A stretch of DNA of 64,000 nt from Marnyiella aurantia (GTDB lineage: Bacteria > Bacteroidota > Bacteroidia > Flavobacteriales > Weeksellaceae): assembly GCF_014041915.1 (NCBI RefSeq), contig NZ_CP059472.1, positions 2,108,001 through 2,172,000 of the forward strand, in the 5' to 3' direction. Shown one piece after another: positions 38,007 to 48,366 of the stretch (position 1 is the first letter of the stretch; each line of letters opens with the position of its first letter). Position numbers and translations under genes: made by a program. The notes beneath the pieces are model-generated. The model had not been told where the DNA came from, made no database searches, and saw only the letters and a list, made by a program, of their open reading frames with translations.

Positions 38007-40023
<2,017 letters not shown>

Positions 40024-45215: not shown

Positions 45216-46103
45216 GTGAAATTTCTTATAGTTATTCCCGCACATAACGAGGAACAGAATATTGCATTCTGCCTGGAATCGCTGCGGCACCAAAGTTTTA
45301 CGGATTTTTGTGTTGTGGTTGTCAATGACGGATCTACCGACAGTACTGAAAAAATTGTTCAGGATTTCATAGCCAGGGATTCCAGATTCGGCCTGAAGAA
45401 TCTCGATAAGTCGGTACACGAGCCCGGTGCCAAAGTGGTGCGGACCTTTAACCACGGACTTGCCACTGCAGATCTTGATTTGTTTGATGTCATCTGTAAA
45501 TTCGATGCGGATATTATTTTCCCGGCACATTACCTCCAGAAAGTTCATAATGTGTTCAGTGAAAGTCCGAAAGCGGGTATGGTTTCGGGACTGGTGAGAA
45601 TAAAGAAATCCGTGTTCGAAAAGCAGCTGGCTTACGATTTCAAAGACCAAAAGCGGCAGTGGATTTTTGAGAATTTATCGTCTAAAAACCATGTACGAGG
45701 TCCGGTAAAAGCTTATCGTAAGCAGTGTTTTCTGGATATAGGCGATCTAAGGCCCGTTTTAGGTTGGGATAATATTGATGTGATGCTGGCTAAAAAGAAC
45801 GGTTGGGAAGTACATACCGTCAAAGATTTGTGGGTGAAGCACCTTCGTCCCACAGCGTACAAGTATAAAAGTCAGAAAGCGAAAAAACTGGGTGAGTATT
45901 TTTACAATATAGGGCTCAGTTTGCCTTTGGCGGCTGTATCTTCTGCGAAATCGTCCCTGAAGAACAAATCTCTGTCAGAATTTTTCATTACGATGAATTC
46001 TTATATCGGGCAAAACGGTAACCGGGAACTGACCCAGGAAGAAATCAGGTACATCCGGAATTTGCGGTGGAAGGAAATGTGGCGGAAATCACGCCAGAAG
46101 TGA
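45216..46103 (+). CDS. Glycosyltransferase family 2
   Basis: 295 residues, GT-A fold. Starts at GTG (45216) with KFLIVIPAHNEEQNIAFCL. The nucleotide-binding stretch CVVVVNDGSTDSTEKIV and the metal motif CKFDADIIFP (DxD) are normal; the acceptor side has GWDNIDVMLAKKNGW (ED-like motif altered to DN/ID). The basic helix RNLRWKEMWRKSRQK ends the protein. The stop codon TGA is the first three bases of the perfect palindrome 46101-46120, so the 3' end was probably trimmed or reshaped by the RAYT element next door. Surface-glycan role likely; specificity unknown. Confidence 0.85.
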   Translation: MKFLIVIPAHNEEQNIAFCLESLRHQSFTDFCVVVVNDGSTDSTEKIVQDFIARDSRFGLKNLDKSVHEPGAKVVRTFNHGLATADLDLFDVICKFDADIIFPAHYLQKVHNVFSESPKAGMVSGLVRIKKSVFEKQLAYDFKDQKRQWIFENLSSKNHVRGPVKAYRKQCFLDIGDLRPVLGWDNIDVMLAKKNGWEVHTVKDLWVKHLRPTAYKYKSQKAKKLGEYFYNIGLSLPLAAVSSAKSSLKNKSLSEFFITMNSYIGQNGNRELTQEEIRYIRNLRWKEMWRKSRQK

Positions 46104-46120
46104 CAGGTCATGACCTGTCA
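46101..46120. repeat. Perfect 20-bp palindrome beside the RAYT remnant
   Basis: TGACAGGTCA followed by its exact reverse complement TGACCTGTCA. Such palindromes near RAYT genes are the usual REP-type substrates of these transposases. The first TGA serves as stop for the glycosyltransferase. A smaller palindrome CACGGCCGTG lies at 46138-46147. Confidence 0.75.
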
Positions 46121-46170
46121 AATGTAAGCGCAGATTGCACGGCCGTGTGTCTAAATCAAAAACCACACAA

Positions 46171-46652
46171 ATGCACAGCAGGAAAAGGAACAGAATGCTG
46201 AATTATGATTACAGTCAGGATGGAATCTACTTCATTACGGTATGTACAAAAGACCGCCGCCATTACCTTGGGAAAGTACATTATGCTAAAGTTTATTTAA
46301 ATGATTCCGGACTGGTTGCTAAAAGACAGATTATTTGGCTTGCGGAGCAATATCCTTACATCGAACTTCATAGTTTTGTAGTTATGCCAAATCATGTACA
46401 TCTTCTGTTTCAAATTGACAGATCCAAGGTTGAAAGCGAAGAATTAAAAATTAAGACCGTTTCGTCATTAATGGGTGCCTATAAAACTACCAGTTCTAAG
46501 GGAATTCACCTTATTGGAAATACTGCTTTGCGTGGCAGCGATCTTTTCACGACCATATTGTGCGCAGCAAGGAAGCATATGAGAAAATTTTCCAATATAT
46601 TTCAAACAATCCTGAGAACTGGGAAAAAGACAAATTTAGAGATGAAGAATAA
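46171..46652 (+). pseudogene. REP-associated tyrosine transposase (RAYT, Y1_Tnp), frameshifted
   Basis: Starts MHSRKRNRMLNYDYSQDGIYFITVC and keeps the HUH metal motif MPNHVHLLF. The frame is intact to about 46524 (SSKGIHLIGNTA). From TTTGCGTGG (46527) the expected sequence FAWQRSFHDHIV, then YEKIFQYISNNPENWEKDKF and a stop TAA (46650-46652) continue in another frame. So one base has been lost near 46520-46527, which removes the catalytic Tyr region. The broken frame runs on unstopped into the amidohydrolase, making a 743-codon open frame that is not a true fusion enzyme. Confidence 0.85.
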
Positions 46653-48366
46653 AATGAATATAATTTTCACCCGTACGGGCAAGTCGGGAGTTGTCCCTAC
46701 AGTAATCCTACTACTGTTTTCAATATTGCTTACCGCTCAAAAACCGACCGATCTTATTATTCACAACGCTAAAATCTATACTGTCAATCAAAATTTTGAG
46801 GTGGCAGAAGCAATGGCTGTTTCAAAGGGAAAAATTGTAGCAGTTGGAAAGAACAGCGAAATACTTCAAACCTACAGCTCAAAAAACATTCGGAACCTGC
46901 AGGGACAAGCGGTTTATCCAGGATTTATCGATGCTCACTGTCATTTCACCGGTTACGCTACCGACAAGTGGAAGTGCGAACTTTGGGGAACCAAGTCCTG
47001 GGAAGAGATCATTGACAGAATGATGGCGTATTCCAAAACAGCACCCATGGAATGGCTTTACGGCCGCAGCTGGGACCAGAATAACTGGGCAGTAAAGGAA
47101 TTTCCGGATAAAAGAAAACTTGACCAACTGTTTCCGAACCGCCCCGTGTATCTGAAGAGGGTAGACGGGCACGCCGCAATTGCCAACCAGAAGGCGCTGG
47201 ACATCGCCGGAATTACAGCAAAAACAAAGGTGAAAGGCGGCGAAATAGAAAAGGTGAACGGTAAACTCACCGGCATCCTGATTGATAACGCCATGCTTTT
47301 AGTGGAAAAACATATTCCTGAAATTTCGGACGAACTTGCAATCCGGTATTTTGGTGAGCTTCAGACAGAATGTTTTTCCTACGGTCTGACTTCGCTGCAT
47401 GACTGCGGAATATCGGCCAAAACTTTTGGTCTTTTAGAAAAAGCTCAGGAGCAGGAAATTCTCAAGATGAAAATCTTCGCTTTACTTGAGGATAATAAAG
47501 CTACTTATGATACGTGGATCGGAAAAGGACGTTTTACAAAGGGCAACATCACTTTTGGAGGTTACAAAGTTTATTCAGACGGCGCGCTGGGTTCCAGAGG
47601 CGCTTGCCTGCTGCACGATTATTCCGACAAAAAAGACTGGAAAGGATTCCTACTCAGCGATAAGAAACATTTTAAAAACCTGGCAGAAAAACTCAGCAAA
47701 AGTAATCTGCAAATGTGTACGCACGCAATCGGTGACTCGGCGAACCGTACGATCCTGCAGATTTACGGCGATGTGTTGGCCGGAAAAAACGACAGACGCT
47801 GGCGCATTGAGCATGCCCAGATCGTTGATAAAAGTGATCTCGGGCTGTTCGGTAAGTACAGTGTGATTCCTTCCGTACAGCCTACACACGCTACATCGGA
47901 TATGTACTGGGCAGAATCCCGAATTGGGAAGGAAAGATTAACGCATTCCTATGCCTACCAGGATTTACTGCAGCAAAATGGTTGGTTGCCACTTGGTACT
48001 GATTTTCCGGTAGAGGAAATCAATCCTATAAAGACATTTTATGCGGCTGTGGCCCGGAAAGATGCTAAGAATTTTCCTGCAAACGGTTTTCAGAAGGAAA
48101 ATGCACTCACCAGAGAACAGGCCCTGCGCGGAATGACCATTTGGGCAGCGAAGGCAGCCTTCCAGGAAAAGGAGTTGGGAAGTCTGGAAGTAGGAAAGTC
48201 GGCGGATTTTGTGGTTTTAACTTATGATATTATAGAAGTTCCTGAAGATAGAATATTACAAACATGGGTTTTGGAAACTTACTCGAACGGAATTAGGGTA
48301 TATGATGGAGAGAAATGGCGGCAGGCTTTAAGTGGTTGGACTGAGTACGGAAATTCAAATCCATAA
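46642..48366 (+). CDS. Amidohydrolase family 3 (YtcJ-like) with altered N-terminus
   Basis: About 574 residues from ATG 46642 (a second ATG is at 46654). Metal-dependent TIM-barrel hydrolase: GFIDAHCHFTGYA (HxH ligands), GGYKVYSDGALGSRG, CTHAIGDSANR, EHAQI, PSVQPTHATSDMYW and PLGTDFPVEEINP (metal Asp). It probably hydrolyses an imide or amide in the periplasm. A hydrophobic signal segment VILLLFSILLTAQ is preceded by residues RTGKSGVVPT encoded by a hairpin repeat (46670-46700). The natural start was probably just before the hydrophobic segment and was replaced by sequence from the RAYT element. Substrate unknown. Confidence 0.82.
   Translation: MKNKMNIIFTRTGKSGVVPTVILLLFSILLTAQKPTDLIIHNAKIYTVNQNFEVAEAMAVSKGKIVAVGKNSEILQTYSSKNIRNLQGQAVYPGFIDAHCHFTGYATDKWKCELWGTKSWEEIIDRMMAYSKTAPMEWLYGRSWDQNNWAVKEFPDKRKLDQLFPNRPVYLKRVDGHAAIANQKALDIAGITAKTKVKGGEIEKVNGKLTGILIDNAMLLVEKHIPEISDELAIRYFGELQTECFSYGLTSLHDCGISAKTFGLLEKAQEQEILKMKIFALLEDNKATYDTWIGKGRFTKGNITFGGYKVYSDGALGSRGACLLHDYSDKKDWKGFLLSDKKHFKNLAEKLSKSNLQMCTHAIGDSANRTILQIYGDVLAGKNDRRWRIEHAQIVDKSDLGLFGKYSVIPSVQPTHATSDMYWAESRIGKERLTHSYAYQDLLQQNGWLPLGTDFPVEEINPIKTFYAAVARKDAKNFPANGFQKENALTREQALRGMTIWAAKAAFQEKELGSLEVGKSADFVVLTYDIIEVPEDRILQTWVLETYSNGIRVYDGEKWRQALSGWTEYGNSNP
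46670..46700. repeat. Imperfect inverted repeat inside the amidohydrolase coding region
   Basis: GTACGGGCAA (46673-46682) pairs with TTGTCCCTAC (46691-46700) with 8 of 10 matches around an 8-base loop; it begins with the palindrome CCCGTACGGG (46670-46679). It resembles REP-type RAYT-linked palindromes and sits 17 bases after the RAYT stop. Confidence 0.6.

Follow-up and report, generated by a model that had tools for sequence, protein, structure and literature searches.

RAYTs are reported to be single-copy, vertically inherited genes (PMC8049555), and REPtrons, in which a RAYT is accompanied by inverted GTAG-type REPs, have been reported not to move as a unit (PMC6006769). Many members of TnpA-REP subclass 2.4 carry in-frame REPs inside the gene (PMC6006769). 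GTAG REPs are known to provide stop codons and to lie in the N-termini of genes, the N-terminal cases having been doubted, and in a survey of REPs within genes none of the GTAG type was reported from Bacteroidetes (PMC3733652). Here we describe a group of soil and water bacteria that carry an old, single-copy element of this kind at one locus, where it lies between two genes and overlaps both.

The window is a 64,000-nucleotide stretch of Marnyiella aurantia (G000:C1:2108001-2172000; G000 denotes the window's genome, of 2.61 Mb), and it contains a RAYT gene flanked by REPs (46102-46700), of the TnpA-REP subclass 2.4 type, between a glycosyltransferase gene and an amidohydrolase gene. The family 2 glycosyltransferase (GT) gene (45216-46103, plus strand), identified from its open reading frame and profile matches, ends in a TGA (46101-46103) that overlaps the edge of the 5' REP palindrome, GACAGGTCATGACCTGTC (46102-46119, plus strand), which was recognized from the sequence, relatives, and the DNA fold. 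The GTAG foot of this REP is decayed in the window; the intact form, GTAGGGACAGGTCGCGACC, is found in Kaistella soli and G261. The GT tail reads WRKSRQK* in the window, compared with a native FxKK* in relatives with an empty site. The RAYT gene, of subclass 2.4/RAYT group 4 type and frameshifted in the assembly, follows at 46171-46652 (plus strand), with its HUH motif codons (H-V-H, in NHVH) at 46393-46401 and its catalytic-Tyr codon (in QYISNNP) at 46596-46598, the latter no longer in the reading frame set by the RAYT start. The amidohydrolase ATG at 46642 lies inside the 3' end of the RAYT gene and overlaps the RAYT stop codon (46650-46652) by 11 nt. From this ATG, a putatively exported amidohydrolase of 574 amino acids (Amidohydro_3; 46642-48366, plus strand; profile match and open reading frame) opens with 20 element-encoded codons (MKNKMNIIFTRTGKSGVVPT; 46642-46701, plus strand), the last of them T20 (46701). 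These codons run through an inverted and partly decayed 3' REP (minus-strand GTAGGGACAACTCCCGACTTG, 46680-46700; intact as GTAGGGACAAGTCRYGACTTGTCC in relatives), whose plus strand encodes most of GKSGVVPT, and they are followed by the native hydrophobic core of the signal peptide, VILLLFSILLT (46702-46734, plus strand), 11 codons before AQ. The preliminary description of this DNA had proposed that a RAYT element reshaped both neighboring genes, its surroundings supplying the stop codon of the GT and the N-terminus of the amidohydrolase; with small corrections, that anatomy is confirmed.

The window gene matches Pfam Y1_Tnp, and intact sister copies match it above the cut-off; with NCBIfam REP_Tyr_transpos, the intact copies score 72.7 to 75.5 bits (E about 1e-20; 2.7e-20) against a model cut-off of 80 bits. 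An AlphaFold model of the intact G001 protein (mean pLDDT, 86) gives predicted matches to IS608 (IS200/IS608), ISDra2, and TnpA-REP 4er8 with TM scores of 0.5 to 0.6. Residues N74, H75, and H77 of the HUH motif and Y143 are invariant among the intact relatives at this locus, as expected of an HUH, single-Tyr Y1 enzyme, and Y143 aligns with Y115 of 4er8, whose Y115F form is a catalytic mutant (PMC8266576). The Phe in WQRSFHDH was considered as a lost catalytic Tyr and rejected; this Phe is invariant in intact relatives, and the Tyr is in YIxNNP. The proteins carry the NHVH, WQ, and YISNNP/YITNNP motifs of subclass 2.4, and a REP lies within the gene in G261 and G264. In the RAYT genes of these two genomes (L196 and L190, respectively), the REP is in frame, of the CGGACAAGTCACGACTTGTCCCTACGG type, and placed between HUH and Tyr. 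Flanking inverted GTAG REPs are present in K. soli, G259, G281, G261, and G264 and largely present in G198 and G194; the foot is decayed in the window. Elsewhere in the genome, a pattern allowing two mismatches found from a few to about ten REP copies in g8 and some Kaistella genomes and none in G000 to G003, and the GTAGGGACA...TGTC pattern had no matches in the G000 genome. The multiple copies or variable sites of an autonomous IS200/IS605 element were not seen, each genome having one copy, always at the same locus. RAYT dN/dS (Nei-Gojobori) is 0.13 to 0.29 in all pairs but one, G259-G281, which has almost no changes and gives 0.53; these values suit a protein under purifying selection.

Compared with the intact G001 copy (L109), the window RAYT lacks one base at 46525-46531, a deletion that had been placed near 46524 and that separates HUH from the catalytic Tyr, as described earlier. 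The break is likely, though not certainly, real, and may be of recent date. The uncertainty arises because ligA (NAD-dependent DNA ligase; 38007-40011, minus strand), in the same window, is split into two open reading frames by a homopolymer indel (GGGGG, compared with GGGG in G001) and because G000 has apparent frameshifts in 6 of 243 orthologous genes in a 400-kb comparison, whereas G001 has none that are real. ligA is normally essential, and its split is most likely an assembly error in G000. Separately, the C-terminal ligA fragment (38010-38705) has a pS of 0.11 against G001, with neighbors at about 0.57, and is possibly a recent exchange tract. Past the break, the window RAYT hardly differs from the intact sister copy, which also favors a sequencing error and a RAYT that is intact in the organism. 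We nevertheless consider such an error somewhat unlikely, as real breaks are frequent in the RAYTs that other genomes carry at this locus. Nonsense codons occur in G261 and G264, at different positions, and deletions in G256; because of these and the one-base deletion in G000, RAYT loss appears to be recurrent. The main conclusion does not depend on the break, since the genes are arranged in the same way in G001, whose RAYT is intact.

We compared the locus across 320 genomes of the family. All matches with more than about 50% identity to the window RAYT lie directly upstream of the amidohydrolase, and no copy of this RAYT subfamily was found at any other locus in these genomes. The carriers are G001, G273 (K. 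soli), G259, G281, G261, G264, G198, and G194, and G256 has a ruined copy at the same locus. The next full-length RAYT matches in the family have 34 to 40% identity; order-wide, RAYTs on the Flavobacterium side have 50 to 58% identity over partial lengths. The RAYTs of the locus form one clade (support, 100/99), separate from the Flavobacterium RAYTs and spanning three genus groups: g1, g8, and g23, the last including K. soli. The 3' junction is the same to the codon in three genera, and the 5' junctions vary between lineages. Empty sites, which had been suggested as a check on the locus, were found in G002, G282, G195, and more than 20 other genomes. Since the junction and the clade are common to three genera, and since the sister genome G001 has an intact RAYT together with the same amidohydrolase N-terminus as the window, the gene reshaping is old and preceded the break. 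The preliminary description had a decayed element becoming part of two host genes; the element is indeed part of both, but the remodeling is ancient and predates the breakage, and it is also seen with intact RAYTs in three genera. A recent insertion was rejected on the same evidence of a common junction and a single RAYT clade in three genera, and independent insertions from a scattered pool were rejected as no other copies were found in the family.

Taken together, a single ancestral REPtron insertion that supplied the front end of the amidohydrolase, followed by divergence and exchange, is the probable history of the locus. A RAYT with inverted GTAG-type REPs would have entered the junction between the GT gene and the amidohydrolase signal-peptide codons before at least three genera of the Kaistella/Chryseobacterium group diverged from their common ancestor, and the amidohydrolase would have been severed from its original start and charged n-region. 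The new start would be the ATG inside the last RAYT codons, overlapping the RAYT stop, with reading continuing through the inverted 3' REP (a D-K-S-R-L-V-P-T peptide that would form the charged n-region) into the old hydrophobic core; upstream, the REP would have come to supply or overlap the GT stop codon in several lineages. The lineages would later have diverged, the RAYT being intact, broken, or lost with the REP-derived N-terminus kept, and in others the locus may have been replaced by an empty or GxxExxY-gene allele via exchange between species.

Filled and empty genomes are interleaved on both the GT-plus-amidohydrolase tree and the rpoB tree, with at least eight changes on the latter; a single insertion therefore needs many losses or exchanges, and we infer that exchange produced the patchy distribution. 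The g8 genomes lacking a RAYT at the locus still have REPs of this type, which suits a former RAYT there. In the G000-G001 pair, RAYT pS is 0.19, compared with 0.42 to 0.66 in all neighboring genes but one, and in the G259-G281 pair it is 0.02, compared with 0.18 to 0.43, again in all but one; in the G198-G194 pair, the RAYT is as diverged as its flanks. Because its silent divergence is below that of its neighbors in several pairs, the RAYT was not simply inherited with its flanks. Silent-site constraint was considered as the source of the low RAYT dS and set aside, since the G198-G194 pair does not show such lowering, and it keeps some plausibility. A nuclease-like GxxExxY (PDDEXK_3) gene was observed at the same GT-amidohydrolase junction in G277, G263, G272, and G286 (also L003 and L005). 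This cassette is bounded by an inverted repeat (AACCACATAG...CTATGTGGTT) and is 98 to 99% identical across species with flanks that are 75 to 91% identical. G277 has the GxxExxY allele and the signal peptide of that clade, yet is nested among RAYT carriers, and allele exchange of the junction between species would be the simplest reading.

The patchy presence of the RAYT, its silent divergence far below that of its flanks in the close pairs G000-G001 and G259-G281, the 5' junctions that vary by lineage, and a GxxExxY cassette 98% identical at the same spot between less similar flanks could also reflect homing-like, repeated RAYT insertion at the same site in different species, as opposed to one insertion followed by loss or exchange. 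We consider repeated insertion unlikely: no subfamily copies were found at other loci among the family genomes, the 3' junction is the same to the codon in three genera, the G198-G194 RAYTs have diverged as much as their flanks, exchange by homologous recombination explains the same data, as in G277, and, according to a published report (PMC6006769), a REPtron does not transpose as one unit. It is equally doubtful that the RAYT returns repeatedly to the junction while the amidohydrolase depends on the element for its start codon and signal peptide, loss being allowed only through allele exchange or with the REP part kept; were this true, a mobile element would be held at its site because part of a host protein comes from it.

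On the preferred reading, that of a single old insertion, the REP is translated as part of the amidohydrolase. Every carrier shows an overlap of 8 to 14 nt between the RAYT stop and the amidohydrolase ATG, and reading of the inverted REP gives a (D/G)KSRLVPT-like peptide. In every genome with a RAYT or a relic of it, 11 hydrophobic codons (10 in two genomes) separate the end of the REP from AQ. Empty-site relatives have signal peptides of 16 to 17 residues starting MKKI, MKNL, and similar. The distance from the ATG to the REP is 12, 13, 16, 24, or 38 codons between lineages, always in frame (the 38 codons, read from the listed G194 peptide, include an extra REP copy in the spacer); the GT-to-RAYT (5') spacer takes all values modulo 3. 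With four to five length changes taken as independent, the chance of such in-frame agreement is about (1/3)^4 to (1/3)^5, an estimate and not a statistical test. The part after the REP has zero charge on its own, the strongest hydrophobic stretch begins at the end of the REP or slightly ahead of it, and the REP peptide appears, from these sequence properties, to supply the charged n-region of the predicted signal peptide. We infer that translation starts at the ATG at 46642 and that the amidohydrolase is exported. ATGATTAATCAGTATACAT, upstream of the element in G259 and G281, was considered as the old amidohydrolase start; it may be a vestige only, the flanks joined by eye being one base out of frame.

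It is very improbable that the REP is untranslated, the amidohydrolase starting downstream or elsewhere and the frame being open by chance. Although the intragenic-REP survey warns that N-terminal REPs are often untranslated and reflect miscalled starts (PMC3733652), G000, G198, and G256 have no in-frame ATG, GTG, or TTG downstream of the REP and ahead of the cleavage region from which a signal peptide could still be made (the sole in-frame candidate after the REP in G000 is a TTG deep in the hydrophobic core), the several changes in ATG-to-REP length all keep the frame, and the REP supplies positive charge adjoining the hydrophobic core. The 743-codon read-through reported earlier does exist as an open frame (46135-48366), in which the RAYT frame after the deletion enters that of the amidohydrolase; it is incidental and needs no explanation, because in G001, the sister genome with an intact RAYT, the amidohydrolase frame is already open for about 56 codons before its ATG. 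That the deletion created a functional RAYT-amidohydrolase fusion is scarcely credible, open as the frame is, since the signal peptide would be buried inside the protein and the read-through is a by-product of the choice of frame.

Several relatives retain the borrowed N-terminus after the RAYT has gone. A large internal deletion and stops have ruined the RAYT in G256, but this genome keeps the REP-derived N-terminus and GT-side REP scars; in G265 and G283, the RAYT is absent, with the REP-derived N-terminus kept and REP scars on both sides. The kept N-termini of G256, G265, and G283 are IENLHFSDKSRFVPT, TENLQFSGKSRLLQ, and TENFRFSDKSSLVQT, respectively. The case that had been named as refuting a role of the element, the same N-terminus in a relative with no RAYT nearby, thus occurs literally in G265 and G283, but the scars on both sides indicate that the RAYT was lost there and was not absent from the start. 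G261 and G264 use the TAG of GTAG as the GT stop, G265 and G283 a TAA in a decayed GTAA foot, and G198 and G256 a TGA inside the REP. The borrowed N-terminus appears, then, to be maintained where the RAYT has decayed or vanished. G287 and G276 (L178 and L193, respectively) have amidohydrolase N-termini that are longer than those at empty sites, with no recognizable REP, and these may represent the same event at a more advanced stage of decay.

Among described systems, the locus is closest to REPtrons of subclass 2.4/RAYT group 4 (PMC6006769), which it resembles in the NHVH, WQ, and YIxNNP motifs (YISNNP in G001), the inverted GTAG-footed REPs on both sides, the Bacteroidetes host, and the in-gene, in-frame REP between HUH and Tyr in G261 and G264. 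It differs from them in the scarcity or absence of REPs in the rest of the genome (g1 has none by the two-mismatch pattern), in the confinement of its copies to one locus, and in an element that supplies the start of a host gene. As with the GTAG REPs that overlap genes (PMC3733652), the REP foot gives or overlaps the stop of the upstream gene and the REP is read as protein downstream; unlike the doubted N-terminal cases of that survey, the frame, the charge, and the lack of other starts argue for translation here, and unlike its GTAG REPs, the feature outlives the RAYT. Rickettsia palindromic elements likewise place a palindromic repeat in frame within a host protein; they are internal or terminal additions over many genes with an unknown mover, whereas here a transposase-bearing unit would have replaced a signal-peptide n-region at one locus (in part from PMC3733652). 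Among the papers searched, none relevant to signal peptides derived from such repeats was found, which does not prove their absence. What appears to be new is a multigenus case of a REP serving as a signal-peptide n-region, with a start codon inside a transposase gene, that survives the loss of the transposase. Why RAYTs, described as domesticated and long-lived single-copy transposases, persist is unexplained, and one reason would be visible here: a genome that sheds the element also sheds the start of a host gene. The locus shows a REP-bounded RAYT inside a gene beside many empty, broken, and relic alleles, and it offers what appears to be a clean bacterial case in which repeat DNA has been built into a signal peptide and has outlasted its transposase.
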